Shown here one piece after another: positions 11,628-33,138 of a DNA stretch of 36,788 nucleotides; the stretch's first letter is position 1, and each line of letters starts with the position of its first letter. Made by a program: the position numbers and the translations under genes. Under the pieces are notes generated by a model. That model saw only the letters and a program-made list of their open reading frames with translations, was not told where the DNA came from and searched no databases. This DNA is from Planctomicrobium sp. (GTDB taxonomy: Bacteria; Planctomycetota; Planctomycetia; Planctomycetales; Planctomycetaceae). The stretch covers positions 1-36,788 of the forward strand of contig DAOUPA010000005.1 of assembly GCA_030626405.1 (NCBI GenBank). Direction: 5' to 3'.

Positions 11628-11630
11628 AGC

Positions 11631-13022
11631 ATGAACGATCAACAGGACTTCTCCCGACGTCTATTTTTGCAGCGCACCGGAATGGGATTCGGCTCGTTGG
11701 CATTGAATCATCTTCTGGGGCAAGAGAGCCTCTCGGCTGAGTCTGGTGCCCACTTTGCCGGGAAAGCCAAACACGTCATTCATGTCTTCTTGAACGGAGG
11801 CATGTCTCAAGTCGACACGTTCGATCCCAAACCAGAGCTGACGAAACGCGCCGGTCAGATGCTTCCGTTTGAAAACCTACAAACAGAACGCAAAACCGGA
11901 GTCGCCTTACCTTCTCCATTTAAATTCAAAAAGCATGGAGAAAGCGGCATTCCCATCAGTGATATCTTTCCGCACCTGTCTCAGTGTGCAGACGATATGG
12001 CTGTGATTCGTTCGATGCATGTTGAACTGCCGAATCATGAAATGTCCCTCATGCTGATGAACTCCGGAGATCAACGACTCGTCCGTCCGAGTTTTGGTTC
12101 ATGGTTAACATGGGGGATGGGGAGCGAGAACCAAAACCTTCCCGGTTTCATCGCACTTTGTCCCGGTGGATACCCGGTCGGTGGTGCAGCAAACTGGCGA
12201 TCTGCATTTCTGCCAGGTGTTCATCAGGGAACTCATGTTGACACATCAAAAGTCGACCCCACAAAACTGATTAACCATGTTCGTAACAGCCGTTTGACAG
12301 ATCCAGAACAAAAGGCTCAATTCGACCTGTTGCAGAGTCTCAATGAGAGACACCTCTCCCAACGTCCAGGAGAAGTCTCCCTGGAAGGTCGTATTCGATC
12401 TTTTGAACTTGCGTATCGAATGCAGATCGAGGCGACTGACGCATTCGACGTTCAGCAGGAGCCAAAACATATTCAGGAAATGTATGGAAAAGGCCCACAG
12501 AACCGCCAGTTGTTGATGGCACGTCGCCTCATCGAACGCGGTGTCCGATTTGTGCAAACATGGCACGGCAGCGGGCAACCGTGGGACAGCCATGCGAATA
12601 TCAAAAACAGTCATCGCAACGTCGCCAGCCAGTGCGACCAGGGACTGGCTGCATTGATTATGGATCTTAAACAACGAGGACTTCTCGACGAAACACTGAT
12701 TCTCTGCACAGGAGAATTCGGTCGCACACCTTCTGTTGAAATGGGAACAGGCGGCACCGGAGCATCTCAGGGACGCGACCATAATCACTGGGGCTTCTCA
12801 TTATGGCTGGCTGGCGGTGGGATCAAAGGTGGCACGATTTACGGAGCCACCGATGATTTTGGATTCAAAGCTGTTGAAACCCCCGTTTCGGTCCATGACC
12901 TGCACGCTACGATGCTGCACTTACTCGGTTACAATCACGAGAGATTGACTTACCGCTTTGCCGGTCGCGACTATCGGCTGACCGACCTTTACGGAAAAGT
13001 CATCAATGAAATTATTGCGTAG
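11631..13022 (+). CDS. DUF1501 domain-containing protein (sulfatase-fold-like)
   Basis: 463 aa; twin-Arg-like start 'SRRLFLQRTGMGFGSLALNHLL'; 'HVIHVFLNGGMSQVDTFDPKPEL'; 'GEFGRTPSVEMGTGGTGASQGRDHNHWGFSLWLAGGGIKGG'; 3 nt after the PSD1 gene. Confidence 0.95.
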   Translation: MNDQQDFSRRLFLQRTGMGFGSLALNHLLGQESLSAESGAHFAGKAKHVIHVFLNGGMSQVDTFDPKPELTKRAGQMLPFENLQTERKTGVALPSPFKFKKHGESGIPISDIFPHLSQCADDMAVIRSMHVELPNHEMSLMLMNSGDQRLVRPSFGSWLTWGMGSENQNLPGFIALCPGGYPVGGAANWRSAFLPGVHQGTHVDTSKVDPTKLINHVRNSRLTDPEQKAQFDLLQSLNERHLSQRPGEVSLEGRIRSFELAYRMQIEATDAFDVQQEPKHIQEMYGKGPQNRQLLMARRLIERGVRFVQTWHGSGQPWDSHANIKNSHRNVASQCDQGLAALIMDLKQRGLLDETLILCTGEFGRTPSVEMGTGGTGASQGRDHNHWGFSLWLAGGGIKGGTIYGATDDFGFKAVETPVSVHDLHATMLHLLGYNHERLTYRFAGRDYRLTDLYGKVINEIIA

Positions 13023-13142: not shown

Positions 13143-15722
13143 TTAATCAACAGTCAATTTTCGGCGATAGACAGTTTTTCCATGTGCGATAAAGAGAGTG
13201 CTGCGATTCGGTCCAGCTAGAACGCAGCTGGTTAATGGTTGATCCTGATCGACCTTCGGTAAGACACCGCACGGTCGTCCGGTTGGATCGAAAACCTGAA
13301 CTCCGAGGGCACTGGTGACGTAGTAGCGTCCTTTCTTGTCGACTGCCATGCCATCGCCACGCCCCGTTCTCTGGTACGGTGGCGGCTCGTTGAAATTGAA
13401 CTCGCCTTTGTAGTCAATCGGGAGCCGCATCGGCATATTGGGCATCTTCGCATCGAGAGTTCCGTTGGGGTTAACGCGGAACAGCCATGTGCGATCACCA
13501 CCGTAGTCAGAGACCGCCAATGTTCCGCCGTCATTCGAAAGTGCGATACCGTTCGGTTTATTGATCCCGGTATCAACCGCTGTGACTTCACCCGTTTTGA
13601 TGTTGATGCGGGTGACCTGTTTCGCACCAGTTTCGGTGATGAAGATGAACCCATCATCGGTCACTGCCAGATCGTTAGGTTTCACCTCAGTCGCGACAGT
13701 TTTCACTTCACCCGTTTTGATGTTGATGGAGATCACTCGATTCTTCGCTCCCTGACAGCCGTACAACAATCCATCGGAGCCGAATTCCAAGCCACTGACC
13801 GATTCCCTGACGATCTCTGATCTTGTTCCATCGTTAGCACTCACACGGTATACGGCTGGTGCTTTCATATCTGAGAAGTAGAGATTGCCAGCATGATCCG
13901 AGCAGAGACCATCAGCAAAACCAAGGTTGTCAGCTACGACTTCCCATGGCTCACTACGAATCAATAAATTCAGAAGTGTCAGATCACCTCCGAGGTCTCC
14001 GCTGGTGTCCAGGACTGGCTCATGCTGTTCTTTTCTCCAGAGCCACTTCATTGCATCAGGAAAACGAGAGCTGCCATAGTCGGCATTGTGCGCATAGCCT
14101 TCGGCCCAATCAAACCGGGTGTCGTACCCCATGTAACTCAAAGAGGATGCCATTCTCTGATTCGACCACGGCCAGCTTCCAAAGCGATTGTCGACGTCCC
14201 CGCTCGTGTCAGCCATGTAAACGCGGAGTGGTTTCGGTTCCGTCTTACGGACCAGTGCCGGGTAGACGTTTCCGCCACGCAGATTCGTGAAGCTGCCGAC
14301 GCTGGAGTAAACTTTCCGGAAGGCATCAGGGCGTTCCCAAGCAGCGGTGAACGCACAAATGGCGCCTGAACTGGAACCTCCGATCGCCCGCATTTCAGGA
14401 TCTTCTGAGATGTTGTAGCGTTTCTCGACTTCTGGGATGATCTCTTCAATCAGAAAACGGACATAGCGATCGCCGAGACTATCGTATTCGTAACTGCGGT
14501 TCGAGGATCTGTTACCTCGTCGCGTTTTCGACATGTCGTGTCCGGGATTGATGAACACCGCAATCGTGGGAGGCATCTCACCGCGTGCAATCAAATTGTC
14601 GAACACGACAGGAATTCGCCAGCGTCCTTTCATGGATCTCATCCCTTCTCCGTCTTGGAAGATCATCAAAGCCGCTGGTTTCTCTTTCTGGTACTGCTGC
14701 GGAACATAGATTGCCCAGTCGCGCGTTGTATTTGGAAAGATCTTGGATGACTCCCACGGTGGCATCTTCTCGACCGATCCTCGCGGCACATCATCTTTCA
14801 CGATTGCATCAGGATGTGGTTCCCATTTTGGTTTGGTTTGCGTCGGTGGAAAATGTGTCGACTCTGCGTCCTCAGACCACAGCCAGCGCAAGGCATCTGG
14901 AAATTCCTCGCCCCCCCATTTTCCACTATGCCCACCTTCGGTCATGACAAGTTTGTAGTTGTAACCCGCAAACTGGAGAGCTGCCGCGAGATCCTGATTT
15001 CCCAGCGGCCAGTTACCATGAAGATTACTGAGATCGTCCTTGCCTTCCTGCAAGTACACCTTAATCGATTTGGGATTGTCTTTCGTTTTGCGAACGAGGC
15101 CGGGATAGGCCCAGCCTCCGCGGATATTAGTGAAACTTCCAATGTGGCTGAGCACCTTGCCAAACTGGTCTGGCTTTTCCCAAGCAACGGTAAAAGCACA
15201 AATCCCGCTCGAAGAGATTCCGCAGATCGCGCGGTCGGCAGGGGTGGCAGAAACGTTGAGTCCCTCCAATGCCACGGGCAGAAACTCATCCAGCAGAAAG
15301 TTTGTGCAGCGGTCACCTAGTGAATCGTACTCGAAGGATCGGTTGCTTCGATTTTTTGCTCCCGGTTTCGTGGCTGGAATCGTGCCCGGATTCACGAAGA
15401 CAGCAATCGTCACCGGCATCTCTTTTTTGTGAATGAAATTGTCGAAGACAACAGGCACACGAAATGAACCTTTCGGATTCGCATAACCACGCCCGTCCAG
15501 GAACACCATCAAATTCGCTGGCTGATCTTTCTTATACTGAGCAGGCACGTAGACGCTGTATTCACGGCTCGTTCCTGGAAAAACCTGACTCTCCGCGTAG
15601 ACGCCCGTGGTGACCTTCCCTTGAGGGACTCCTTGCTGGACTGTTCGATCAGGATTAGGCTCAGCGGCTTGAACCGAAAGAGCGATGAACGCGACTGAAA
15701 CAAAGCAGATCAATAATTTCAT
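13143..15722 (-). CDS. Two tandem esterase (enterochelin-esterase/Fes-like) domains fused to an SMP-30/gluconolactonase-like beta-propeller
   Basis: Two homologous modules, each with 'YEYDSLGDR/FEYDSLGDR...GISSSG/GGSSSG...AWEKPDQFGKVLSHIGSFTNIRGG/AWERPDAFRKVYSSVGSFTNLRGG', then 'WEVVADNLGFADGLCSDHAGNLYFSD...KPNGIALSNDGGTLAVSD'. Start revised from 15779 to ATG 15722 (MKLLICFVSVAFIALSVQA signal peptide). Confidence 0.9.
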   Translation of the reverse strand: MKLLICFVSVAFIALSVQAAEPNPDRTVQQGVPQGKVTTGVYAESQVFPGTSREYSVYVPAQYKKDQPANLMVFLDGRGYANPKGSFRVPVVFDNFIHKKEMPVTIAVFVNPGTIPATKPGAKNRSNRSFEYDSLGDRCTNFLLDEFLPVALEGLNVSATPADRAICGISSSGICAFTVAWEKPDQFGKVLSHIGSFTNIRGGWAYPGLVRKTKDNPKSIKVYLQEGKDDLSNLHGNWPLGNQDLAAALQFAGYNYKLVMTEGGHSGKWGGEEFPDALRWLWSEDAESTHFPPTQTKPKWEPHPDAIVKDDVPRGSVEKMPPWESSKIFPNTTRDWAIYVPQQYQKEKPAALMIFQDGEGMRSMKGRWRIPVVFDNLIARGEMPPTIAVFINPGHDMSKTRRGNRSSNRSYEYDSLGDRYVRFLIEEIIPEVEKRYNISEDPEMRAIGGSSSGAICAFTAAWERPDAFRKVYSSVGSFTNLRGGNVYPALVRKTEPKPLRVYMADTSGDVDNRFGSWPWSNQRMASSLSYMGYDTRFDWAEGYAHNADYGSSRFPDAMKWLWRKEQHEPVLDTSGDLGGDLTLLNLLIRSEPWEVVADNLGFADGLCSDHAGNLYFSDMKAPAVYRVSANDGTRSEIVRESVSGLEFGSDGLLYGCQGAKNRVISINIKTGEVKTVATEVKPNDLAVTDDGFIFITETGAKQVTRINIKTGEVTAVDTGINKPNGIALSNDGGTLAVSDYGGDRTWLFRVNPNGTLDAKMPNMPMRLPIDYKGEFNFNEPPPYQRTGRGDGMAVDKKGRYYVTSALGVQVFDPTGRPCGVLPKVDQDQPLTSCVLAGPNRSTLFIAHGKTVYRRKLTVD
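13585..13728 (-). repeat. 24-nt exact direct repeat (ACTTCACCCGTTTTGATGTTGATG) spaced 120 bp, inside the SMP-30 propeller
   Basis: Copies at 13585-13608 and 13705-13728; encode repeated 'INIKTGEV' at a 40-codon period. Confidence 0.85.
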
Positions 15723-16043
15723 TATGTGCCTATGGTGAATATGAATATCATCAAGAGGAATTCGAATCGAGCCAAACAAACGGGAGTCGTGTTCGTCATC
15801 ATGGTACTTTCATGAATGTCTGACAAGTCATGCCCAGATGGGCCGCTCTACCGAGTCTGCAGCGAATCAATTCGGAGATTCAAACAGTCTGTTTTGTGAG
15901 CGAGCGAGAACACTTTCGGCTCGGAACAAGTTATCATCGGCACGAAGAGAAATGTGGTCAATACTTTCGCGGAGGGGCATTCCATCAACGAAATTATTGC
16001 GTGAACATCCTTACGAACAGTATTCAACCTCGACACAAATCGC

Positions 16044-17075: not shown

Positions 17076-19436
17076 TCAGGTCAACCTCGCGAAACCTGTG
17101 TGTTTCACCGGGCCGCCGATGCGCCGTGCGATGTCGCCATCGCGGATTGCATCGGCCAGTTCGGTAAAGACATCGTCCAACGCGTCGAGGTAAGCAGCGA
17201 CGTGTCGCGGTTCATGAGCGAGCATGGCATTGAATGCGCCACCAGCAAGGAATCCTTGCTGCAACATGCGGGCAGTCATCAAAGTCGTCAATGCCGCAGA
17301 CTCGGGATGCTCAAAAGAGAGTAACGCACACTCTGGTCGGCCGGGAGTTTTCACTGGCACGTTGTGCTTTCGCCCCAATTCCTCCCAGCCTTCAATGACT
17401 AAAGAGCCGATGTGAGCAAGGTGACAGGGAGCGTCGAGACGCATCAGCTTCCGCACACATGCCAGTGCCGCAGCTGGTCCGACTCCTTCTGTCCAAAAAG
17501 TGCTGGAAATAAAGGATTCCTGTGCAACCTGCATCACGTCACGAGTGCCGATGGCCGCGCCGATTGGAAAGCCGTTGCCTATCGCTTTGGCAAACACAGC
17601 AATATCTGGATTGACGCCGAATTTGCGATGCGCTCCGCCGAGACACAGCCGCCAGCCGATTGAGATTTCGTCGAAAATCAGCGGTGATTGAAGTCGATCA
17701 CATCGTTCTCGAACGCCTTCAAGAAACCCCGGATCCGGGTCTGTGTGGCGTGTTGGTTCCATGACAATCGCTGCCAATTCGCCGCCGTGTTGGGCAATGA
17801 TTTCGTCCAGTTCGTCGAGGTGATTGTAGCGGAAGGTCAGTACCGATCCGCTCAGGCCAGAAGGGACGCCGCGCGGTTCGAGGCCCGGTAACAGGTGACC
17901 TGTGAGTTGATCACTCTCAGAGAGATTCGCAGCGAGATACCAGTCATGCCAACCGTGGTAACCGCAAACGGCAATCTTATCGCGCCCCGTATACGCTCTT
18001 GCGATTCGAACAGCGACGGTCATCGTCTCGCCACCGGCACGGGTGAACCGTGCGTTGTGCGCCCAAGGATGAATTTCGAGCAACAGCTTGGCGAGTTCGA
18101 CCTCGTCAGATGTTTGCAGCGTGGACATTGAGCCGAGGCCGACACGGCGGATGACGGCGGCGTTCACGTCCGGGTCGCTATACCCGAGGATGCACGTCAA
18201 AATTCCGCCCAGACTCATATCGATGAAACGTCGCCCTTCGATGTCAATCACCTCACAGCCGCGTGCCTCGCGATAGTAAGCGGGCCACTGGTCGGGAGCG
18301 AACATTTCCGGTCGTTTACTGAGCAGTTGCGTCCCACCGGGAATGATCTCTTTCGCTTCTCGGTAAGTCGCCTGCACATCGGGCATGCTTCGCGGCAGCG
18401 GCAGGTCGAGCAATCGTCTCGCCCCGAGGCAGAAAACCTCTTCCACATCTCCATCGGTCAAATGCTGGTTGGTACATGCCTGTTTGAGTGCCAGTAAAGA
18501 CTCAATGCCCAGCAAAGTCGGCTTAGCGAAACGCGAGCGACTGAAATTCGGTTTGAGTTCGTCGAGCCATAAAAAGCCGTCGGCTAAGTTGACGCAACGG
18601 CTACGCATCTCGGTCACACAAAAATCGGCCCCGAAGAACAAGCGAGTTGGCCCGAACGTTTTCAAAATGGCCTCGAAGGCTTCTGGTTCGCAAACAGCCG
18701 AGGTGTCAAAGAAGACATTGTCCAACCCGCGTAGTGACTCGATCCCTTCAACCGTGTGGCGACCACAGAAACCTCGGGCCGCATGAGCGAGAATCAGCTT
18801 TGCTCCGGGATATCGTTGACAGTGATTACGGATATAGGACTGGTTGGCAGGTTCAGCAAGGGCCCGAGGCAACACCATGTGCAGCATGATGACCAAACCA
18901 CGCCGGTCTGCGATTTCCCACGCCCATTCAGGTATGAACTCCTCCGTCGGTGCGAACAACGTCTCATCCCGATCAGCAAACAGGTGGTAAACTTTGAAGC
19001 CCGCGAAACCATCTGCCGCAACTTGCCGCTCAACGTCCGCCGGATCCTGCTTCGGTGTGACGATCATCAGCCCACGAGAACCTGGATCAGTCTTCACTTG
19101 GTCAGCGAGAAATCGGTTTGCCGCGTCGACCTCGAGCGCGCGAGTCGGAAAGGGAAAAAACAAGCCACCGGTCGGACAGCGATTTGGCATCCACATCGAC
19201 ATGCGTTCGTCATACACCGCCCGCGTGACTTCTTCTGGTCCCGCGGCAGCCAGTAGCGGTGTGGGAGTTCCAAGATCGGTCACACGCCAGAGATGCGCGT
19301 GCGCATCGAACGCATCCGGCGGCACAAAGTTTTTGAGCCCCCGGTCAAACAGATCGAGATCCGTGTCACCAACCGTTGCCCAGACGTACGGGTTGATGTC
19401 GTCTGCGGAATCATGTGCCGAGGCTTTCATGGTCAT
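17076..19436 (-). CDS. Bifunctional fusion: N-terminal amidohydrolase (amidohydrolase_2-like TIM barrel) + C-terminal class-III PLP aminotransferase/aminomutase-like
   Basis: 786 aa in one uninterrupted frame. N-term: 'FDAHAHLW', 'GLVIMLHMV', 'AKLILAHAARGF', 'NVFFDTSAVCEPEAF', 'RLFFGADFC'. C-term: 'IIPGGTQLLSKRPEMF', 'AGGETMTVAVRIARAYTGRDKIAVCGYHGWHD', 'FDEISIGWR' (PLP Asp), 'VFAKAIGNGFPIGAAIG' (PLP Lys). Confidence 0.9.
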   Translation of the reverse strand: MTMKASAHDSADDINPYVWATVGDTDLDLFDRGLKNFVPPDAFDAHAHLWRVTDLGTPTPLLAAAGPEEVTRAVYDERMSMWMPNRCPTGGLFFPFPTRALEVDAANRFLADQVKTDPGSRGLMIVTPKQDPADVERQVAADGFAGFKVYHLFADRDETLFAPTEEFIPEWAWEIADRRGLVIMLHMVLPRALAEPANQSYIRNHCQRYPGAKLILAHAARGFCGRHTVEGIESLRGLDNVFFDTSAVCEPEAFEAILKTFGPTRLFFGADFCVTEMRSRCVNLADGFLWLDELKPNFSRSRFAKPTLLGIESLLALKQACTNQHLTDGDVEEVFCLGARRLLDLPLPRSMPDVQATYREAKEIIPGGTQLLSKRPEMFAPDQWPAYYREARGCEVIDIEGRRFIDMSLGGILTCILGYSDPDVNAAVIRRVGLGSMSTLQTSDEVELAKLLLEIHPWAHNARFTRAGGETMTVAVRIARAYTGRDKIAVCGYHGWHDWYLAANLSESDQLTGHLLPGLEPRGVPSGLSGSVLTFRYNHLDELDEIIAQHGGELAAIVMEPTRHTDPDPGFLEGVRERCDRLQSPLIFDEISIGWRLCLGGAHRKFGVNPDIAVFAKAIGNGFPIGAAIGTRDVMQVAQESFISSTFWTEGVGPAAALACVRKLMRLDAPCHLAHIGSLVIEGWEELGRKHNVPVKTPGRPECALLSFEHPESAALTTLMTARMLQQGFLAGGAFNAMLAHEPRHVAAYLDALDDVFTELADAIRDGDIARRIGGPVKHTGFARLT

Positions 19437-19489: not shown

Positions 19490-20968
19490 CTACTCGTTGA
19501 ACTTGAAAGCGTAGAGATCGGCGTCCTTGATCACAAACCGCAACCGAACTGGCTTTCCAGAGAGAGAGGAGAGATCACTTCCTTGTTTCCATGTGACCAC
19601 CCGCTCGATCTCGTTGCCGATTTGCTCGTTGGCCTCGTTCAGTGAAAATCCAGGCATTGGGTTGCCGGATACATCTTGAATCTCAACGCGAACACTGCCT
19701 GCTGCGGAAGTCCCAAAGTTGATGGTCAGCTCCTGTCCTTTGAATGTCAGCGGTTTAGTGACCAATTCTCCACCAGCATAGAGCGCTTTCGCCGAAGCAA
19801 ACCCGTCCAGACGCATTGAGTATCTTCGCAAATGTGATGTGGGTTGAGCGTAATCTTGATTGAGATAAACCGACATTTCCGTAGGGCTGGTTTGCACAAC
19901 ATTCAATGCCGGATAATTCGTCCGCGAAACCCAGTTCCTTGCCCCAATGCCGGGACGAACAAATCCGCCGAGAAATGTTCGGTCGTAGAACCCACCACCT
20001 CGCGAAGTCATCAGCACAGCGTCGGAAGTGTCCTTGAAATATTTCGGAGACACGTCGATCGCTTTGGCTTGTTCGTCCGTAAGCACTTGCCGTCCGGGCA
20101 TAAATCGGGCTGCAATCGAAACATACAGGTGTGGGGCGCGGAAGTATGGATGTGTCTGATTCGTGTAAAGATGTTCGATTGGGGCTTCGCCGCCGTGATG
20201 ACGATACTCCATCAGGATTGGCTGAGACCAATTGATGAAGTCATCACTGGTTGATCGGCAGATGCGGCGTATTCCGCCCTCAAAAACTCGAAAGTAGCAG
20301 ACGTACTTGTTTTCCTCGGCGGACCAGAAGGCGAGATTCTGTGAGTCAAACATGTATTTGTACGGGACCTCTTTCGTTTTGATTACCGCTTCTTCACGGA
20401 GTTTTTTCCAACGAATGCCATCGGCGGAAACCATGGCAATCAGACCACTGGTCATTGTCCCTCCAATTGCCTTGAAACGTTGGTCGGCTGGAACTCCCGG
20501 ACGCGTATCAAGCATCGGGCAGAAGTTGTGAGTGACCGGAGCCGCATCTGCCAGGACGATGTTGTTCTTCGAGTGGCCGCGAACATTAAAGAGATCGAGT
20601 TCTGGTTTCGTCCACACGATGCCGTCATTGGATTCGGCGTAGCAATAGACTTCGATCGGATCACCGTCCGCTCCCTCTTCAGGTCGGCCTCGATAGTAGA
20701 GTCGATACAGATCGCCATCTTTGATCACCGTGCAGTATCCACAGAAAAGGCCTTCCCATGGCTTGTCAAAATTCAAGGTAATGCCTTCGTCTCTCGGCCG
20801 ATTGAGGACCAGGCGAACGTTGTCCAACTTGTCGATCAGATGATAGTCAACCATTAATTCGCGACGACTGCCGATGTGGATGACGTCGCCTTCCGCACCG
20901 ATCGATAACTGACAATTTGTCGTAAGTTGCACGGCAAACAGAGTAAGAACGAGGATATGGTTTCGCAT
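19490..20968 (-). CDS. Secreted glycosidase-like beta-propeller protein (GH32/GH43-like fold)
   Basis: Signal peptide from ATG 20968 (MRNHILVLTLFAVQLTTNC; the track's start at 21025 is non-ATG); 'CYAESNDGIVWTKPELDLFNVRGHSKNNIVL'; C-terminal beta-sandwich-like 'SVRVEIQDVSGNPMPGFSLNEANEQIGNEIERVVTWKQG'. Confidence 0.75.
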   Translation of the reverse strand: MRNHILVLTLFAVQLTTNCQLSIGAEGDVIHIGSRRELMVDYHLIDKLDNVRLVLNRPRDEGITLNFDKPWEGLFCGYCTVIKDGDLYRLYYRGRPEEGADGDPIEVYCYAESNDGIVWTKPELDLFNVRGHSKNNIVLADAAPVTHNFCPMLDTRPGVPADQRFKAIGGTMTSGLIAMVSADGIRWKKLREEAVIKTKEVPYKYMFDSQNLAFWSAEENKYVCYFRVFEGGIRRICRSTSDDFINWSQPILMEYRHHGGEAPIEHLYTNQTHPYFRAPHLYVSIAARFMPGRQVLTDEQAKAIDVSPKYFKDTSDAVLMTSRGGGFYDRTFLGGFVRPGIGARNWVSRTNYPALNVVQTSPTEMSVYLNQDYAQPTSHLRRYSMRLDGFASAKALYAGGELVTKPLTFKGQELTINFGTSAAGSVRVEIQDVSGNPMPGFSLNEANEQIGNEIERVVTWKQGSDLSSLSGKPVRLRFVIKDADLYAFKFNE

Positions 20969-21076
20969 TGGGAATAACCTTTTAATACAAATTGAGTCGG
21001 AATCTATGAGTAGCGAGATTGACACTTCCGAGTTAGAGCGATGGAAGACACAATCTACAAGACAGTTTCATCTGGT

Positions 21077-22768
21077 TCAGTTCTCTCCCTCTCGGCCTCC
21101 GATGTACATGGCATAGACTCTGATATCGCTCGCATCAGGAAAGTTCACTCTCACTGAGAGCTTTCGATTTTCCGGCAAGTGATTCGTTCGCTGACTCGAC
21201 CACACAATTTCAACATACGTTCCAGAAGTCACGACACGAGCCGCATCCACACCTGAGAATCCGGGAAGTGGATTGTCGGATGCGTCAAGCAATTCAACTG
21301 TGACTGGTGAGTTTGCAGAAACACCTTCCAGGTTGAGAAACATCTTGGTGGCTCCCTGAGCTTCAAACGACGATGTCATGAAGCTCGCAGGTGATTCGGG
21401 AACTTTGTGAGAAAGATAACCGAAGCCGTCTCGACGCATTGTGGCGAGACCGATTTCCATGTTTCGCAATTTTCCGCCCGTGTCCCAGTGTGAATACCAC
21501 ATCATGGTCTTGTCACCCACATTGGCAAAGGCGTGCCCTTGCAGCAACGCGATACTGTCCCATTGCCCCTTCTCGCCTCGGGCAATGACTTTGTGATCCG
21601 CCACCGGCTCGCGGAAATGGATTCCATCATGACTGGTGATCAATCCCAGATCGACAGCGACGCCCTGATTCCAGTATTTACCGTCTTCGGGCTTCTTCTC
21701 AGCGTCCTGCCACATTCCGTAAAGCCCTACGATGACGTTTCCTCGATTCCACATTCCCGCACCCATGTGCGTCTGTTGCCCGGCGATAGGCGAGGATGTC
21801 AGCTGTCCTGGTCTTGCGAAGGACAGCGATTTGGCCCGCGACCAATGTTCGAAATCTGATGAGCGGTAAGTGAGCATCACCCGACCGATGTCACTGCCGT
21901 TCGCTCGCCATGCCCAAGGTGCAAGCAATTGCCCTGAGGCATAGTACCGACCATCAAAGCGATACAGACTGGAAACTTCGAAACGCTCGCCACCAGCGTT
22001 CATGGGCCGATCTCCTACAACCTTCCAACTCAAACCATCGGCACTCGTGGCGCAGATAAACGCCGACCATCGATTTTCATTGGGACCGATGCGACTGCGT
22101 CCGCCGTGCACGTCGTCAAAAGTAGGATGTGCGATGTAGGCACACTTAAAACGGCGTTGCGGGTCGGGATCGTGTGGCTCGTAAATCACAGACAGAAAAT
22201 CGTTCACTTTCGCCAGTGACGGGACAGTGGACTCAATCAGGCAGATATTATTCTTGCGGTCGCCGTTGAACTCAACGAGACCCAGTTCGGGTTTACTCCA
22301 GTTCACTCCATCATCACTTTCGGCGTAACACATCGGTCGCCACCAGCCTGGTGCCTGTCCGCTTTTAATCTCGGTCTCGAACATTCCGAGATACCACATG
22401 CGAAACTTCCCGTCGATCCGCAACACGCTGCCGTAGAGAATCGCATGGCCGTGGTCAGGCGCACCTTTCGGCCCACGGCGCACGACCGGATTCGCAGGAT
22501 GCTTCTGCGCACTGACGAGCGTCAATTGAATGTTATCGCGCCAGGGAATCGCATGATCATCAAAAGAAAAGAGCACTGCTTCGTTCACCGCTGGCCCACC
22601 TGCAACCGAGACGCGAGTCACCGATTTTGGTGTGCGCGATTCTGGCTCAACGCCGACTGCATCCTGAGCATTCAACGGCGAAGTGAATAGAAAAAGCAGA
22701 GAGCAAGTGAGCAACCATGCTGTCCGCGAACAGTACTGAGGCGATCGTTGCAATCGAGTAAAATTCAT
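21077..22768 (-). CDS. Secreted glycosidase-like beta-propeller protein (GH32/GH43-like fold), paralogue of neighbouring genes
   Basis: 563 aa; signal peptide; 'KHPANPVVRRGPKGAPDHGHAILYGSVLRIDGKFRMWYLGMFE'; 'CYAESDDGVNWSKPELGLVEFNGDRKNNICL'; C-terminal 'TVELLDASDNPLPGFSGVDAARV'. Overlaps the upstream gene by 4 nt (ATGA). Confidence 0.78.
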   Translation of the reverse strand: MNFTRLQRSPQYCSRTAWLLTCSLLFLFTSPLNAQDAVGVEPESRTPKSVTRVSVAGGPAVNEAVLFSFDDHAIPWRDNIQLTLVSAQKHPANPVVRRGPKGAPDHGHAILYGSVLRIDGKFRMWYLGMFETEIKSGQAPGWWRPMCYAESDDGVNWSKPELGLVEFNGDRKNNICLIESTVPSLAKVNDFLSVIYEPHDPDPQRRFKCAYIAHPTFDDVHGGRSRIGPNENRWSAFICATSADGLSWKVVGDRPMNAGGERFEVSSLYRFDGRYYASGQLLAPWAWRANGSDIGRVMLTYRSSDFEHWSRAKSLSFARPGQLTSSPIAGQQTHMGAGMWNRGNVIVGLYGMWQDAEKKPEDGKYWNQGVAVDLGLITSHDGIHFREPVADHKVIARGEKGQWDSIALLQGHAFANVGDKTMMWYSHWDTGGKLRNMEIGLATMRRDGFGYLSHKVPESPASFMTSSFEAQGATKMFLNLEGVSANSPVTVELLDASDNPLPGFSGVDAARVVTSGTYVEIVWSSQRTNHLPENRKLSVRVNFPDASDIRVYAMYIGGREGEN

Positions 22769-24300
22769 TCTTTATCCTTCGTGCCAGGGGTGGCGTTTGT
22801 TGTTGCAGAATCAGAGTGAATGGAAACGTCGCTTGCATTCAGCGACAGCAGGGTCGTCAATGCTTTGAGGTCTGCACCAGCACTTGAGTTGTGCTCTGTG
22901 AGATTTGCCCACTGCGAGTGAACATCTTGCCCGGTCTGTAATTGAAACTTGGAAAATATCTTTGTGGAATAGCGTGCATTATCGCTCCGTAGACTGGCAA
23001 TGTCATAGAGGTTTCTGTCAGCAGTCCACCGCATGCCTCGCCATAAAGTAATTTCGGGTCGCAGAGGGCCACGCGTCTTCGTCAACGTTGTGATGTAATC
23101 GTAGGTCACGGGAATCTTGGTCAGCGCTGGGACACCGGCAATGATCGAGTCGTGTAGCCGTGCTTCGCCTCCAATACCCAGGATGTTTAGCCCAAGGAAT
23201 GTCACCCGCCGAGCGTCAAGAGCCGAATTGTCGTATAGACGCACATTGCTTTCGTTGGTGATGCGGCGAATGTAAACGTTATCCATCTTCAACCGGCACG
23301 GCTGATCTACCTGTTCGTCGCCGACAACACGTAGCGCGTGTACCGCAGATGAAAGCACAACGGCGTTGGTGATCGAATGCCTTCCAGTGTTCAGAAAGTA
23401 CAGGTCGAAACCCAGACAGTCGCGAATAAAGACACGGTTGTAGCTCGTCTCGCTCGCACCGGTGTCACAGATGCCAGTCGAATTGCCGATGGAGACGAAT
23501 CCATTCACCCGATATTGTGCCGACTCATGTGCGCTGATGCCATCATCACCGCATTCGATTGCGCGGATGTTCTCAAACAGCACGTCCTCGCAGTTGCCAT
23601 GAATGTTGAACCCGTCGTTATAGACATGAGTGCTTGTCAGGTTGCGGATAACGAGGTGCGAGTTTTTGTTTTCACCTCTGGCGTCAAACTGTACGCCCGC
23701 GGCACGCGACGGCACGAAAATGTTCGCATCGGCAAGCTCTTGCCCTGGCAGCAACTTCACATAAAACGCACCCGCGATTTGCAGTCGTTTTGGCATCTTC
23801 CGCTTGGCATCTTTCACGAAGGTCCATTCACCAGGCTTAAGATCGCCAGATTGCTTGAGAGCAGCACTGGGGCCTTTCAGAGTACGCCCCATGTGACTCA
23901 TACGACCGTTCCAAAGCAGAAACCAACGCCCGATGATGGCATCGTCAAGGTAGGGCAAGAGATCGTCGCAACGAAACAGGCCTGACTCCACTTCGCGCCA
24001 TTGTTTGGGATCGAGTGGATCAGAACCTTCTAGTGTCGCCCCGTGACCGTCGAGTGTGATCGGATTTCCCTCTTCACCACGTTTGCCGTAAAAGTTGGCG
24101 GACTCACGATAAACGATTGGGAGCAGATGGATCGTGTCACCCGGTCTCGCCAGTCGAATTGCCTGACGAATCGTTTTGACAGGACCGTTGACCGAGGAAT
24201 CGTCGCCGGATTTCGGATCGACATGAATATCACGAGCAAGGAGCAGCGGAGTCCAAAGGACGCTGAGGACATGGGCAAAAATCAGAACACGACAACTCAT
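22765..24300 (-). CDS. Secreted right-handed parallel beta-helix protein (DUF1565-like / pectate-lyase-fold)
   Basis: 511 aa; 'IHVDPKSGDDSSVNGPVKTIRQAIRLARPGDTIHLLPIVYRE' N-terminal motif; 'NGFNIHGNCEDVLFENIRAIECGDDGISAHESAQYRVNGF' helix-rung repeats. Confidence 0.85.
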   Translation of the reverse strand: MSCRVLIFAHVLSVLWTPLLLARDIHVDPKSGDDSSVNGPVKTIRQAIRLARPGDTIHLLPIVYRESANFYGKRGEEGNPITLDGHGATLEGSDPLDPKQWREVESGLFRCDDLLPYLDDAIIGRWFLLWNGRMSHMGRTLKGPSAALKQSGDLKPGEWTFVKDAKRKMPKRLQIAGAFYVKLLPGQELADANIFVPSRAAGVQFDARGENKNSHLVIRNLTSTHVYNDGFNIHGNCEDVLFENIRAIECGDDGISAHESAQYRVNGFVSIGNSTGICDTGASETSYNRVFIRDCLGFDLYFLNTGRHSITNAVVLSSAVHALRVVGDEQVDQPCRLKMDNVYIRRITNESNVRLYDNSALDARRVTFLGLNILGIGGEARLHDSIIAGVPALTKIPVTYDYITTLTKTRGPLRPEITLWRGMRWTADRNLYDIASLRSDNARYSTKIFSKFQLQTGQDVHSQWANLTEHNSSAGADLKALTTLLSLNASDVSIHSDSATTNATPGTKDKE

Positions 24301-24303
24301 GAT

Positions 24304-25011
24304 TCAGGCTTCCTCGTCATTCGGTTCTGCATTGACCATCCAGGCACGCGCCTGCATTTGAATCATCGCGCGGGCCTGATTCAGATCCCGGTCGCGCATC
24401 GCCGCGGCCAGTTCCTGATGCTCCCAAATGACCCGATCATCAGTTCCTTCGCCGGATGCCCAACGTAGTTGAGCTGACTCGAAGAACTGCACCAGTACGC
24501 GCTGCATGCCTGCGACCAGACTCGAGCCTGTCATCTGTAACAGAACCGAATGAAAAGCAACGTCCAACTCAACCGTTTTGTCATTCGCGCCGCTGCGGAT
24601 AGAGCGTTCGAGTTCATCCGCCAATTCGCATAACTTGGAGATTTGCTCATCTGTTGCGTTTCGTACAGCTAGCTCAACGGCTCCCATTTCCAGTACGTAC
24701 CGCAGCTTCGCCAACTCCGAAATATCCTGCTGTGATTCGAGTAGCGAGGGCAAGCCGAGTTCCAGCAATCGCAATGGATCGGGTCGACGAACGACCAATC
24801 CTTTGCGTTTGCGACCTTCCAGTAATCCAAGTGCGACCAGTCGTCCGACTGCCTCACGCGCGACAGTTCGCGAAACGTCATATTCCTCGGCAAGCTCTGC
24901 TTCGGTCATAAAAAACTCGCCATCGGTTAACCGTGACGATTGAATGCGCTCACGCAATCGTTCAGCAAGGTCTCCGGACTGTGTCCGTTGAATCGTGGTC
25001 TTCGCAGTCAT
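24304..25011 (-). CDS. GntR-family transcriptional regulator, FadR/FCD-type
   Basis: wHTH 'EYDVSRTVAREAVGRLVALGLLEGRKRKGLVVR'; FCD region 'LDVAFHSVLLQMTGSSLV...EHQELAAAMRDRDLNQARAMIQMQ'. Confidence 0.9.
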   Translation of the reverse strand: MTAKTTIQRTQSGDLAERLRERIQSSRLTDGEFFMTEAELAEEYDVSRTVAREAVGRLVALGLLEGRKRKGLVVRRPDPLRLLELGLPSLLESQQDISELAKLRYVLEMGAVELAVRNATDEQISKLCELADELERSIRSGANDKTVELDVAFHSVLLQMTGSSLVAGMQRVLVQFFESAQLRWASGEGTDDRVIWEHQELAAAMRDRDLNQARAMIQMQARAWMVNAEPNDEEA

Positions 25012-25020
25012 ATGTACGGT

Positions 25021-28000
25021 CTATTCTGCTCGCTTGAATTGGACGGTCACTGTTGCTCGAGGGTCGACATCACGAATCAACACGTGCCCATCCGGCGTCG
25101 CTTCCCACGCATGTGGCTTCTGGTTCTGGAAAACGTTTGCGACGTCGGATGCCATTCGGTCCGTAATTCGTAACCACCCACGAACGGACGGATCAGAAGT
25201 TTTGAGTTGGAATGCGAATCGATACTCGTGCTGGACCAGCACATAATCAAGTTGTACGACTGCGTTGTTGCCTTGTCCGAACAGCGTCCGGAAACGTTTG
25301 GTCATCAGGTAGCCCAAAATCATGAACTGACCTGAAGGAGCTAACTTTGGAGCCGGGTTGTTTCGTTCGATAAACAGCGGCATGCAGATTCGCTCTGACT
25401 CAATTGCCGTCGCGCGGTCAAATCCTGTATGCAACCAGCGAACCGCGTCTGATTCTTTACTTTCGTGAGCGGTGATATTCTTGTAGCCGAGTTCTTGTGC
25501 AAGGCGACGATACTCGGTGTCCATCCAAGGCGGACAAATCGTCTCTTTTTCATCCCAGAAGAAATGGAAGTTCGTGTAGGCGTTGTTAATCACGCCCAGC
25601 AGACTATTTCTCGCACTGTAGCGATCAGGAACTTGCGCTGGTGTCCCACCAATGTTAGGCTCCAAAACCCCTTTGTAACTCGTGTTCGCCCAATGACCAT
25701 AGTCGGTGATTCCGAAAAACGCAGTCGCATTGCTAAACAGATCAGGCATGCGAGTGACGGCAGAAAATGTATTCCCGCCACCACCGCTGCCTCCTGTCAT
25801 GTTGATGCACGACGCATCGATTTCGTTCGGATGTTTTTGCAATGCGGCTTGAACGGCATCGTAGATATCCATGACTTCCAATCCGCCGTCATCGCGTTGT
25901 CCCGCAGACTCTTCACGACCACGCAAGTCCACGGAAATCGCAAACAAATCTCGCAAAGCAAAGTGACGTGCGGTGCCGAGCATCCGCCGTCCGCCATGTC
26001 GTAGAATCGGCTCGCCGAACCCATGTAGCATGACAACCACCGGTTTGGGATTGCCGTCAGGTCGAAACGCTGTCCACGCTTTGAGTGGTTTCAGGTGCGA
26101 CACACTGGACGAGTAGACGAGCGACTCCTCGACGAGACGCTTGTCAGCCCGAAACGCCTCGGGAGATGTCGCGTTCTCCTGTCGACGAAACCCCATTGAA
26201 TAGAGACGCAGTCCGTCTCCTTTCCCTCGAAAGATGATGCGAACGCGAACACTTTTCGTCTTCACATTTCCGAGGCCTGACTTGCCTTTCCAGGAAACAA
26301 CCTGCTGCGCGCCTGACATATCGATCTTGTCGCAACTGTCTAATTCATATCCTCCAATCACATCGTCGCTTTGACCATCAAGCAGTTCAGCAAGCAGGTA
26401 CCCACCGTCATCAGTTTGAGTGTTGAGTGTGAGGACGCATTCGTGAAGATCTTCGACCTTCATCGGAACGGTCGTTACGTAGCCAACGTGCTTTCCCGCA
26501 ATGTTTCGGATGTAAGTCCAGCCATCGGTCGGCAGTGTCGCCAGGCCCAACTGCATCTTTGTTTCTTTCCATCGCTTGAACTCAAACGGTGGATCGTCCG
26601 GAGATTGATAATCGGCAGCACCGTAATACAAGCGAATTTCGTTCTCCATCACCATAGGTTTGACTGGCAGGAACAGGCCCCGGTCAAAGGCATCGCCCTT
26701 TCCCTGTTCAATGATTGCTTGTCCGTCGTGAACGCGAACGAAATGTTCGCCATCGCGGCTGACAGCAAGTTCCAGATGCTGCTCGTAGCCGTTGCCGGTT
26801 TGGTAAAGCATCACATACCGCCCCTTGTACTTGCAGACGGCAATGTCGTGAACTTTGTCCCAGGAGCCGCCAGTTTCGGCTTGAAAAATGGGATTCTGCG
26901 GATGCTCGGTCCATGACAGACCATCGGCACTGTAGGCGTAGCAAATGGTGCGTCGTACTGGGGGTTCATCGAGATTCGGACACATGCAACCGTAGGCTTT
27001 CCATCGCCGAGACGCTGGAGCGACCGGGTCGTAGACCACCGAGTGGTAGTCCACCCACTTCGGTTCAGGTCCAGGGCGATGAAACGTGATCGGCTCCTTT
27101 CGCCAACTCAATCCGTCCTCTGAAGCAAACCCAGGTGGAACACTCAGATACTTGCGAGACGTCTGGGTTTGATCAGGATTAAGCATCACGTTGAACGGGC
27201 CATGAAAGTGACGCAATTCCATGCTGAGGTCATAGCCAAGACCGAGTGCATTGTTCTGCTTACTGCCTTTGAATTCGTGAAGGCCGAGCGTAGGTTTTTC
27301 CCAGGTGATGCCATCTTTGGAAGTGGCGTAGCACAGGCGGAGTAATCGCTTCCAGCCTGGGACTCCGTCTGTCTCTTTGAACCAATCCTCCGCGAACGGA
27401 TTGCTTGCCCCGTACCACGCTTTGAAAATGCCATCGTCCTGTAATACGACTCCACCATTGAACACTCGGTGAGAATCAAGTGTTTTATCGTCACCGCTGG
27501 GACGTAAGAGTGGGTTTCCCGGGTGTTTGTGCGCCGTTTGCATGACCTGCTCCGTCCAGAGCGACCGTCCCACATCAAGCATGTCGAGGAATAATACATC
27601 TGTGCCAGGACGGGCAACCGGAGAGGAAGTTGCGAACCGATAGGCACGCAAAGGGCGAGGGACATTTTTATTTATTAAGAGGACGCTGAACTCTTCATGA
27701 CCAGATTCAACATGCGACTGCACAACGAGTTTTTTAACGGGCGCCAAGTTGTCTTCGAAGTTTTCAGAGATATGAAACATCCCCCGACCTTCGCGAATTG
27801 TGTCCCAGCCAAAACCGAGCCAGCGCGTGTAGTAGACGTACTCTCGTTTGCCGGTCGTGTTGATAAAGAACAGCCACGGAATTCCGTTTCCATCCAGCAG
27901 CATTTGTGGGCCAGAGAGACGGTCAACTTCCCATCGCGAATCTCGCGCTGTCAGCGGAAGGTTCTTTTCCCAACTCTGACCGGTGTAGAGCGAATACTCG

Positions 28001-28869
28001 ATTTGTCCATGTTCTACCGGCATCGCAATCAGTAACTGATGTCGGGCACACAAGAGTGATGGACGAGCCGCCGCTACACCGATGGACTCCGGATGTCGGC
28101 TGGTCCCTCCGCTCCGCAACCAGCGTTCGCCATCAGCAGACTCCAGATGCCAGACGATCCCTTTTCTGTCGCGCCAGACGACATGCACAACTCCGAGTTC
28201 CGAAACACAAACCTGCGGATCTGTTTCACCTTGTTCGTGGCAGATTTCCTCATATGTCCAGGAGTTGTCCTTTTGGCGTGCGACCCAAATCGTTCCGCCC
28301 TGTGACTGCGAAGAGCCGACGAAGACCGGTTCGCCACCCCGTCGATTTAAAGCCGAGGCTGACGGGAACCCGGAACCCAATTCAATGGGATCCGAATAGA
28401 ACTGACGCGACTCAGACCGTTTGGCGTCGCCTTCGAGCGAACATGAGCTGAGGTATGTCTTATCACCCTGCGCCCAAGTGATCATCAACACATCCTCTAC
28501 CGTGATCTCCATTGTCGCGCTCGACTGCGCCTCGGCGAGTTGCAACACTCCGCTCGCACCAACAAGAGTCACTCCGTCGCTGAGTGAAACATCCAGCGAA
28601 TCTGCCATTGGAATACCAGGAAACAGTCGCACCCTGCCGTCATCCGCCGTGAGATAGAAGTAGGTCCCGTCACCCGCTCGCGCAACAGCGGCTGTCGCGA
28701 CATGCTCTGCGGCAGCCGACGACCGACAGAGTGAAAGCAGAGACAACAGCAACACCGCCAAAACCACGAAAGCCAATGAGCTGACTGTTCCCTTAGCTCG
28801 TAGCACGGCTGATTCGAAGGAAGATTTTATCACTCCGGTTTCCCTGTTTAGCTCGGGGTCAGGCATCAT
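25021..28869 (-). CDS. Large multidomain protein: signal-anchor + BNR/sialidase-like propeller + GH32/43-like propeller + C-terminal alpha/beta hydrolase
   Basis: ORF to 28926 uses a TTG start; ATG 28869 is a plausible start. Hydrophobic 'LAFVVLAVLLLSLLSL'; 'RLCYATSKDGITWEKPTLGLHEFKGSKQNNALGL'; 'ICYAYSADGLSWTEHPQNPIF'; hydrolase 'PVVVMLHGFGEP...NMTGGSGGGGNT'. Confidence 0.82.
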   Translation of the reverse strand: MMPDPELNRETGVIKSSFESAVLRAKGTVSSLAFVVLAVLLLSLLSLCRSSAAAEHVATAAVARAGDGTYFYLTADDGRVRLFPGIPMADSLDVSLSDGVTLVGASGVLQLAEAQSSATMEITVEDVLMITWAQGDKTYLSSCSLEGDAKRSESRQFYSDPIELGSGFPSASALNRRGGEPVFVGSSQSQGGTIWVARQKDNSWTYEEICHEQGETDPQVCVSELGVVHVVWRDRKGIVWHLESADGERWLRSGGTSRHPESIGVAAARPSLLCARHQLLIAMPVEHGQIEYSLYTGQSWEKNLPLTARDSRWEVDRLSGPQMLLDGNGIPWLFFINTTGKREYVYYTRWLGFGWDTIREGRGMFHISENFEDNLAPVKKLVVQSHVESGHEEFSVLLINKNVPRPLRAYRFATSSPVARPGTDVLFLDMLDVGRSLWTEQVMQTAHKHPGNPLLRPSGDDKTLDSHRVFNGGVVLQDDGIFKAWYGASNPFAEDWFKETDGVPGWKRLLRLCYATSKDGITWEKPTLGLHEFKGSKQNNALGLGYDLSMELRHFHGPFNVMLNPDQTQTSRKYLSVPPGFASEDGLSWRKEPITFHRPGPEPKWVDYHSVVYDPVAPASRRWKAYGCMCPNLDEPPVRRTICYAYSADGLSWTEHPQNPIFQAETGGSWDKVHDIAVCKYKGRYVMLYQTGNGYEQHLELAVSRDGEHFVRVHDGQAIIEQGKGDAFDRGLFLPVKPMVMENEIRLYYGAADYQSPDDPPFEFKRWKETKMQLGLATLPTDGWTYIRNIAGKHVGYVTTVPMKVEDLHECVLTLNTQTDDGGYLLAELLDGQSDDVIGGYELDSCDKIDMSGAQQVVSWKGKSGLGNVKTKSVRVRIIFRGKGDGLRLYSMGFRRQENATSPEAFRADKRLVEESLVYSSSVSHLKPLKAWTAFRPDGNPKPVVVMLHGFGEPILRHGGRRMLGTARHFALRDLFAISVDLRGREESAGQRDDGGLEVMDIYDAVQAALQKHPNEIDASCINMTGGSGGGGNTFSAVTRMPDLFSNATAFFGITDYGHWANTSYKGVLEPNIGGTPAQVPDRYSARNSLLGVINNAYTNFHFFWDEKETICPPWMDTEYRRLAQELGYKNITAHESKESDAVRWLHTGFDRATAIESERICMPLFIERNNPAPKLAPSGQFMILGYLMTKRFRTLFGQGNNAVVQLDYVLVQHEYRFAFQLKTSDPSVRGWLRITDRMASDVANVFQNQKPHAWEATPDGHVLIRDVDPRATVTVQFKRAE

Positions 28870-28991
28870 CGAATCTGCGGTTGATGAGTTGATCAAATTG
28901 AATTCGATGAGGAAATTCGTATCCAAGGCTGGTTTACGGAAGGCACAGCCTCCGTCGCATTCATGCCATTTAAGTCAGTGGTATCTCAACA

Positions 28992-29018: not shown

Positions 29019-29037
29019 AATTAAATACTATTTAATT
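29019..29037. promoter_or_regulatory. Candidate operator: perfect 9-bp palindrome AATTAAATA-C-TATTTAATT
   Basis: Read directly; 29-bp centre-to-centre from the 28992-29006 dyad; 37 bp upstream of ATG 29075. Confidence 0.55.
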
Positions 29038-29074
29038 GAATTTTAAGTGTCAACCAACCTCGTTGAGACCAACC

Positions 29075-29818
29075 ATGCCCCCTCGCCCTGAACCATCGAC
29101 AATCCCCGACCTCGCCGCATTACAACGTTTCGACACACCCACGATTTGCAACGCCATCGAGTTGTTCAAGATTCGTTCGCCAAGCGCCGGTTACATGGAT
29201 CGAAGGATTGCCGCCTGCTTCGCAGACCTGTCTCCCATGGTTGGCTATGCAGCCACTGCGACTTTCCGTTCAGCCGCGCCTGCTCACGCGCTCGAAAGTA
29301 ATTCCAATCTTTCATCTCAACTGCTTGAATCGTTCGCAGATTTACCTGCACCGGCTGTCGTCGTATTTCAGGATCTTGATGATCCGCCAGCAGGGGCAAC
29401 GTTTGGGGACGGCATGTGCCTGACGTACAAAACATTTGGTGCCGTCGGTCTCATTACGTCGGGAGCCGCTCGTGACTTGGACAACGTCCGCGCTCTCGAC
29501 TTCCCTTGCTTCAGCAACGGGACAATTTGCGGTCATGGTCATTGTCACACCGAATCCATCAACGTACCGGTTCACGTAGGTGGCATCACCATCTACCCCG
29601 GTGACCTACTGCACGGTGATTGCAACGGCGTCACAACGATTCCACTCGAAATTGCCCATCTCGTTCCATATGCCTGCTCCGAGTATCTCAAGCACGAAGC
29701 ACTCGTGCTCGACCGGCTTCGCGCAGGAAGCACCGACATCTCCGGACACCAGCAAGCCATCGCTGAAATGAACAGGCGTCTCGATCAACTCAAAGGGGAA
29801 CTATCGAGCCTACTGTAA
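29075..29818 (+). CDS. RraA-family protein (HMG/CHA-aldolase-like fold)
   Basis: 'FDTPTICNAIELF', 'ITSGAARDLDNVRALDFPCFSNG', 'VHVGGITIYPGDLLHGDCNGVTTIPLEIA' match the RraA/DlpA-type motifs. The ORF track starts at TTG 29036; ATG 29075 (MPPRPEPS) is preferred. Confidence 0.9.
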   Translation: MPPRPEPSTIPDLAALQRFDTPTICNAIELFKIRSPSAGYMDRRIAACFADLSPMVGYAATATFRSAAPAHALESNSNLSSQLLESFADLPAPAVVVFQDLDDPPAGATFGDGMCLTYKTFGAVGLITSGAARDLDNVRALDFPCFSNGTICGHGHCHTESINVPVHVGGITIYPGDLLHGDCNGVTTIPLEIAHLVPYACSEYLKHEALVLDRLRAGSTDISGHQQAIAEMNRRLDQLKGELSSLL

Positions 29819-32900: not shown

Positions 32901-33134
32901 GAAACTCTCGCTGCTAATTCCTCTCGGGAAGAGTTACACTTGAGGCAATTGTACTTGCTGTTACTTAACCGACCGGCTGAAGATATTGAGGTACAAGAAG
33001 CAATCCACTTCGTGAATCAATATGAGAAAAGACGTGCTGCCTCTTCAAATTCTGCCGACAACGTTCGGCTTGAAGCTTGGTCTGAATTTTGCCAAGCCTT
33101 GTTTGCTTCCAACGATTTTTTGTTTAAGGAGTAG
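29979..33134 (+). CDS. PSD1/PSCyt1 c-type cytochrome (DUF1549 + DUF1553) with coiled-coil and insert domain
   Basis: 1051 aa; 'EHCYKCHSENSKEVQGGFRLDDRRAIRTGGDSGPGVVPGK'; 'CARCHDHKFDPIPTRDYY'; 'RVTFDLTGLPPTANEIESF'; 'RVLVNRIWSQLFGTGLVRSVDYVGIHGDQPSHPELLDYLA'. Confidence 0.95.
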   Translation: MKGIFSNKKRMCCNDSFWIDWSLAGGAFAIAMLAFSTASIGEDQNHVTTTDAKGIEFFEQRIRPVLIEHCYKCHSENSKEVQGGFRLDDRRAIRTGGDSGPGVVPGKVDEGYLLETLEYTGELYDMPPDGKLPEKVIADFRRWVKMGAPDPRKPKATKTAKTLAASPDDLWVLRPLHRPEFPVVKNKRWIQGGIDRFVLAKLENLKLTPVAPAKRYTLLRRVTFDLTGLPPTANEIESFINDPDEDAFEKVVDRLLASPGFGDRWARHWLDLTCFADLADDQGNVLIQGAWRYRDYVIDALNSDKPFDRFIHEQIAGDLLPYNTVQQQREQIIATGYLAIGPWTLQNYVKEQLHADVIDHQIDKISRTFLGMSVRCARCHDHKFDPIPTRDYYAMAGIFHSTLTTRFDGRGVWSRIVTRELPEIQGDQALAELEQTLTKIKQQKKALETELEEFFNQQAAEKYRKKVVSKTGNGLTLESGIAANQAGKEYRVSFAAGPSVWAAASQATDKQDGILIQILRKDETVLNYHVHQPGAWSSKPDAQQLSKGSFTYTGDGSGDVRLHVTASHLHSGRFGGAVDDLKVIETEASQAIFTENFDEYQISGTPGVQNQTQLPVYAAGSFSKWVGSGINHSHAVNLSGKQDQPNIALQIFSGNTEKSEIPRVAEINKEVESLARQIKLLEYVRPGVSKALAVQDIPTPEDTSIYIRGNFRTRGDAVPRGALSAVEDHPFPEIPQGTSGRKELAEWLASKQNPVTPRVLVNRIWSQLFGTGLVRSVDYVGIHGDQPSHPELLDYLAIRFRDDHHWSLKSQIRELVLSSTYRMSSQHHPVAAKNDPDNRWLWRMNRRRLTAESIRDGMQAISGKLDDSRGGPSLGLRIPANLSGIDDKVNPVAYTSNKSPDHIVNRRSVYLPLLRDRPTGMLEILSVFDFPHPNEITGRRVEKTVATQALYMMNAPFVKEQAKLTAERLFVREGETLAANSSREELHLRQLYLLLLNRPAEDIEVQEAIHFVNQYEKRRAASSNSADNVRLEAWSEFCQALFASNDFLFKE

Positions 33135-33138
33135 GTGA

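Follow-up and report, generated by a model that had tools for sequence, protein, structure and literature searches.

Enzymes resembling one or the other half of the fusion reported here have been described. On the aminotransferase side, the heme-pathway glutamate-1-semialdehyde (GSA) aminomutase HemL (PDB 5i92, 2gsa) is a fold type I, class III enzyme with the same Asp/Lys set of PLP residues as the C-terminal domain of the fusion and about 25-30% identity to it, but this domain stays far below the hemL cut-off, possesses other substrate-site residues and comes from a genome with a separate HemL. On the amidohydrolase side, the COG3618 lactonase 4dlf and the PDC lactonases 2ffi and 4i6k yield the highest Foldseek TM-scores with the N-terminal domain (0.67-0.70 on the target), but they are stand-alone enzymes which share only 13-16% identity with it. 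COG2159 amidohydrolases, i.e., LigY (5vn5), LigJ, the gamma-resorcylate and other hydroxybenzoate decarboxylases and ACMSD, are Amidohydro_2 proteins like the N-terminal domain and give the best Foldseek E-values, whereas their TM-scores amount to 0.5-0.56 and their aromatic pathways are not seen near the fusion. Next to these, standalone aminotransferases from nonulosonic acid (NulO) clusters show about 46-60% identity to the C-terminal domain, and nearly all of them share with it the residues K374, R466, W496, W499, R563, W648 and R784 and a C-terminal FxRL motif; they differ from the fusion in being without an amidohydrolase and in having the biosynthetic neighbours NeuB, SpsF and PseG. The pse islands of Aeromonas, which serve flagellin glycosylation, contain an AKR and a class III aminotransferase, neither of which is assigned a function in the passages concerned (PMC7874193), and the likeness of this aminotransferase to the standalone relatives is taken from cluster layout. 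A published amidohydrolase-aminotransferase fusion was not found in the open-access papers searched, which agrees with the initial annotation of this DNA, according to which no characterised enzyme is known to have such architecture.

The fusion gene and its operon

The window, i.e., the whole stretch of 36,788 nucleotides analysed here, is part of a 7.13-Mb planctomycete-type draft genome of 787 contigs. At 17076-19436 it holds an ORF of 786 aa, which starts with ATG and has its sole stop at the terminus. The continuous frame described initially is thereby confirmed, with the correction that it resides on the minus strand, the plus strand over the same interval having many stops and not being open. 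All motifs named at that time were recovered, i.e., DAHAHLW (residues 44-50), LAHAARGF (216-223), FFGADFC (267-273), FDEISIGW (588-595) and FAKAIGNGFPIG (615-626), and the junction, expected near 18.4 kb, was located at residues 346-354, corresponding to ~18.38-18.40 kb of the window. The two-domain assignment was likewise borne out by Pfam, which identified Amidohydro_2 (PF04909) at residues 44-278 (E 7.5e-15, 55.9 bits vs a gathering cut-off of 26.4) and Aminotran_3 (PF00202) at residues 384-738 (E 1.9e-39, 135.9 bits vs 30.5), both well above the curated cut-offs. Codon-position G+C is even across the junction and shows no break, and in an alignment of 35 fusions the inter-domain junction is variable, comprising about 9-40 residues. 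The features of the gene are as follows.

17076..19436, minus: fusion gene, 786 aa (ORF, Pfam, codon composition)
18402..19376, minus: Amidohydro_2 domain of TIM-barrel type, residues 21-345 (Pfam 44-278, AlphaFold model, fold matches)
19293..19301, minus: HxH pair H46 and H48 on strand 1 (invariant in 44 fusions and in separate homologues)
18624..18626, minus: D271, last-strand Asp, invariant; putative metal/substrate set together with K148, H186, H218 and R221
18375..18401, minus: short junction, residues 346-354 (alignment of 35 fusions)
17079..18374, minus: class III aminotransferase domain, residues 355-786 (PF00202; nearest folds GSA aminomutase, PctV and FumI)
17586..17588, minus: K617, PLP Schiff-base lysine, with D589 and E590 upstream (invariant in 44 fusions)

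The operon comprises six genes of one strand (28926 to 17076), which are separated by 9, 3, -4, 51 and 53 bp and end with the fusion, in the order c1/S9-hydrolase protein, FCD-GntR regulator, c16, c1, c1, fusion, where c1 and c16 are our labels for two protein families.

25021..28926, minus: first gene of the operon, secreted protein of 1301 aa, c1-type propeller and S9/alpha-beta hydrolase domain
24304..25011, minus: operon regulator of the GntR/FCD kind (closest to NanR among NCBIfam models, far below cut-off)
22765..24300, minus: c16 protein, repeat-rich, beta-helix-like by inspection (precedes c1-fusion also in L034, L050, L128 and L140)
21077..22768, minus: second c1-family protein (family match)
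19490..21025, minus: secreted propeller-type c1 protein, next upstream of the fusion (no Pfam match; profile weakly like GH130/GH32-type propellers)
29036..29818, plus: RraA-like protein, candidate pyruvate aldolase, encoded divergently to the operon (PF03737, 1.1e-22; best NCBIfam matches below cut-off)

Genes of the c1 family lie close to the fusion gene in further phyla as well. The family is large, with 11 matches in the genome of the window and representatives in 37 of 59 genomes searched, and its proximity to the fusion in planctomycetes is for this reason weak evidence, which also weakens the c1 neighbours as a specific marker of the fusion. Being without a Pfam model and weakly GH130/GH32-propeller-like, the c1 family (19490-22768, minus) is a candidate for an undescribed glycosidase family. 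The RraA-like gene was ruled out as a conserved partner, since in other genomes with a fusion the genes most similar to it sit away from the fusion. Elsewhere in the window, an 878-aa ORF (13143-15779, minus) combines two PF00756 esterase stretches with a subsequent SGL/SMP-30 lactonase domain, and two gene pairs, each for a large cytochrome-type protein (DUF1549/PSD1-like by inspection) and a DUF1501-like one (8823-13022 and 29979-34536, plus), typical of planctomycetes, flank the region.

Conservation, distribution and evolution

Full-length fusions of 60-76% identity are carried by the relatives G004, G008, G034 and G018. When each species was represented by a single genome, a scan detected full-length fusions under nine phylum labels, i.e., Planctomycetota, Verrucomicrobiota, Bacteroidota, Spirochaetota, Hydrogenedentota, Armatimonadota (Zipacnadia), Lentisphaerota, Acidobacteriota and Bacillota, of which individual labels may be wrong because most source genomes are MAGs; isolates are found among the Bacteroidota, i.e., Chitinophaga alhagiae (L051) and two strains of Membranihabitans marinus (L048, L049). 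An even sample of 244 genomes from the phylum of the window was searched for the N-terminal domain, which was present in 25 of them with 27 matches in all. Ten of the matches belong to frames of 334-403 aa, the other 17 to fused frames of 786-852 aa, which are carried by 17 genomes of the sample, nine of these being single-contig assemblies.

Residue conservation was derived from 44 aligned full-length fusions, all of which possess H46, H48, N107, K148, Y150, H186, N198, H218, R221, D244 and D271 in the N-terminal half and K374, R466, W496, W499, E560, R563, D589, E590, K617, W648 and R784 in the C-terminal half. Both active sites, described initially as apparently intact, thus retain their hydrolase (H46/H48/K148/H186/H218/D271) and PLP (D589/E590/K617) residues throughout and are therefore under selection. 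As relatives are fused as well, nine of them in single-contig genomes, and as every catalytic residue is kept in the 44 aligned fusions, chance or a frame-joining error, against which a check at the junction had been advised, is excluded; together with the even codon composition these findings rule out an assembly artefact or joined frames. Nor are the homologues always separate genes, an outcome which would have spoken against the initial proposal.

A maximum-likelihood tree was computed from 82 aminotransferase domains; it places every one of the 35 fused rows in a single clade (support 98/99), along with 12 single rows, and the label fused or single requires about nine changes on the tree. 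Among the single rows, L042 is truncated by a contig end, L036 and L070 adjoin a separate N-domain gene, and L058, L059 and L065 adjoin an Amidohydro_2 protein of another subfamily; the others are without an N-domain or Amidohydro_2 gene in their locus. The simplest account is one fusion event with splits or losses afterwards. Distances among N-terminal and among C-terminal domains correlate at 0.82. The two domains are also encoded by unfused genes which adjoin each other, in either order (L036, L070, L114, L117, G006), whereby divergent pairs (L114, L116, L117, G006, L135) have the opposite order and either adjoin or have one gene between them. Since separate N- and C-domain genes are kept close, the link between the two activities does not depend on fusion alone, which speaks for two functionally linked domains, possibly with consecutive steps on one metabolite as suggested initially, as does the repeated location of the aminotransferase beside amidohydrolases of other subfamilies in L058, L059 and L065.

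The two catalytic domains

The AlphaFold model of the full-length fusion (pLDDT 86.3, pTM 0.85) retrieved aminotransferases only when used as a whole for a fold search, hence the N-terminal domain was modelled separately. The resulting model is of TIM-barrel type (pLDDT 91.4, pTM 0.90), and its HxH pair, two further histidines and final aspartate (H46/H48/H186/H218/D271), invariant in the 44 fusions, are also kept in the separate homologues. Lactonases head the TM ranking, but the label "lactonase" is insecure as the best Foldseek E-value belongs to LigY, a C-C hydrolase, with decarboxylases close behind. A PDB sequence search with the single N-domain sequence gave nothing relevant, and the N-domain profile gave weak PDB matches only, to gamma-resorcylate decarboxylase and ACMSD. 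The N-terminal domain is best taken as a hydrolase, its target being probably a lactone or lactam; a decarboxylase is possible.

The structural and sequence neighbours of the C-terminal domain are GSA aminomutase, PctV, FumI and D-phenylglycine aminotransferase, and it belongs to class III by PF00202 with D589 and K617 invariant. On TIGR00713 (hemL) it scores 186 bits vs a curated cut-off of 527, while the separate HemL of the same genome (L002) reaches 626 bits. The seven residues shared with the standalone members are common to nearly all fused and standalone sequences and unlike those of HemL; HemL-type substrate-site residues were not found, with K374, R466, W496, W499, R563 and W648 differing from the genome's own HemL. 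A heme-pathway GSA aminomutase is ruled out by scores, separate HemL and substrate-site residues, and the scores likewise disfavour the GSA-aminomutase-like 1,2-amino shift considered initially.

Gene surroundings of fused and standalone members

Three locus sets were compared by mechanical neighbour gene calls, i.e., 40 fused, 17 separate-pair and 33 standalone loci. With the reservation that these sets share ancestry and their counts are not independent, HpcH was found in 9/40, 1/17 and 0/33 loci, respectively, SSS in 4/40, 4/17 and 0/33, BNR in 7/40, 0/17 and 0/33, PhyH in 9/40, 4/17 and 0/33, and GntR in 7/40, 1/17 and 0/33, and MFS is likewise limited to the fused and separate side. The neighbouring HpcH proteins have their matches among pyruvate aldolases of the HpaI/GarL/YfaU type. 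L034, L128 and L140 show the gene order c16-c1-fusion again, and an Opitutus MAG (L050) has it extended to c16-c1-c1-MFS-fusion. L129 and L141 consist of a divergent GntR followed by an HpcH gene overlapping or abutting the fusion, the operon of Chitinophaga alhagiae reads MFS-fusion-HpcH-AKR-Gfo-SDR, and fused loci of Bacteroidota in general include an MFS or SSS transporter, HpcH, AKR, Gfo/Idh, SDR and BNR proteins. The fused loci are heterogeneous, as HpcH occurs in only about a quarter of them and some have no recognisable pathway neighbours, and the operons of fused genes are GntR-associated and look catabolic. A few loci have, close to the fusion, a gene of the DHDPS/N-acetylneuraminate-lyase family (L107:13300-14241, L055:5119-6054), which is another possible pyruvate aldolase.

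Standalone loci have other surroundings. NeuB, SpsF, PseG and NeuA were taken as NulO markers, a locus being positive with at least one of them, and 26/33 standalone loci are positive. AKR was found in 13/33 and Gfo/Idh in 10/33 standalone loci and both together in none (Fisher p 0.002, a value which is indicative only because the loci are related); in the standalone NulO loci L063-L103 the two are thus mutually exclusive, as if they did the same job. On the annotated Pseudosulfitobacter plasmid pSMR1-1 the order is pseB-pseC-AKR-GNAT-hypothetical-AT-pseG-pseI, and on a Halorussus plasmid a Gfo/Idh gene lies two genes upstream of the standalone aminotransferase. By analogy, such clusters look like a dehydrogenase may form a carbonyl which the aminotransferase would then aminate, a logic known from Kdo8N biosynthesis. 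Within the standalone clade another, independent fusion was noticed, with a cytidylyltransferase-like (SpsF) domain (Syntrophus L095, 700-aa ORF), and a pse cluster of Pseudosulfitobacter holds a 677-aa gene of the aminotransferase clade which may be a further fusion (L149:8278-10311).

Proposed function and alternatives

With about an even chance, the fusion is a cytoplasmic, bifunctional enzyme that degrades an amino-sugar acid, in which hydrolysis and deamination, in an order and on a substrate that are proposed here, would feed a pyruvate aldolase. The C-terminal aminotransferase would remove the amino group to leave a carbonyl, if it works in this direction, and the N-terminal amidohydrolase would hydrolyse this same compound, for which a lactone or lactam is most likely. 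The resulting hydroxy-2-oxo acid might then be cleaved by a pyruvate aldolase, HpcH/HpaI in relatives and perhaps the divergent RraA-like protein in the window. The likeliest source of the substrate would be a bacterial surface glycan of nonulosonic acid type, favoured because standalone relatives with the same clade-specific binding residues lie in pseudaminic acid clusters; the NulO link of the fusion itself is one of kinship and shared residues, with NulO genes in 0/40 fused loci. Going further, we tentatively suggest, as a reading we hold to be doubtful, that the fusion holds the central place in a pathway, so far undescribed, which consumes amino-nonulosonic acids or extra-amine derivatives from the surface glycans of other bacteria, thereby removing the amine that the standalone relatives, with AKR or Gfo/Idh, would install in pseudaminic-type clusters and leaving its product to an aldolase of HpcH/HpaI or RraA type. 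Such a role would also help to explain the pairing of aminotransferase and AKR or Gfo in many pseudaminic acid clusters. The fusion joins two enzyme families functionally, and since standalone members belong to glycan synthesis and fused ones to catabolism, without overlap of their surroundings, the substrates to be tested reduce to a short list.

Unlikely is a short and linear route for a gamma-hydroxy-alpha-amino acid without any nonulosonic acid, in which the amidohydrolase would open its lactone or lactam, the aminotransferase would form a 4-hydroxy-2-oxo acid and the aldolase would release pyruvate and an aldehyde. L129 and L141, holding only GntR, HpcH and the fusion, fit such a three-step route, as do the lactonase-type fold of the N-terminal domain and the aldolases, since 4-hydroxy-2-oxo acids are substrates of HpcH/HpaI and RraA-type enzymes, but the BNR/propeller glycosidase-like neighbours and the NulO clusters of the standalone relatives would be left unexplained, and class III enzymes of this aminotransferase branch usually take distal amines as substrates. 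Rather improbable is that the two domains share a pathway but not consecutive intermediates, the N-terminal domain being a decarboxylase or C-C hydrolase of COG2159 type; LigY and hydroxybenzoate decarboxylases are among the best Foldseek E-values and the weak profile matches point the same way, yet lactonases score higher by TM and no aromatic-degradation genes were noticed in the loci inspected. That the fusion is biosynthetic and supplies the envelope of its own cell with an amino sugar, as appears to hold for the standalone relatives, we consider similarly improbable, for although the nearest standalone aminotransferases sit in surface-glycan clusters, NeuB, SpsF, PseG and NeuA occur in 0/40 fused and 0/17 separate-pair loci, which instead hold transporters, aldolases and FCD-GntR regulators. 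Neither an error of assembly nor a plain GSA aminomutase of heme synthesis that carries a passenger domain is tenable, since the fused frame recurs in many phyla and in nine genomes assembled as a single contig, a true HemL is encoded elsewhere in the genome and the clade residues are unlike those of HemL, even if the top NCBIfam model for the C-terminal half, with a score below its cut-off, is named "glutamate-1-semialdehyde 2,1-aminomutase". Half of a bifunctional enzyme with nine phylum labels thus carries a GSA aminomutase name whose cut-off it fails.
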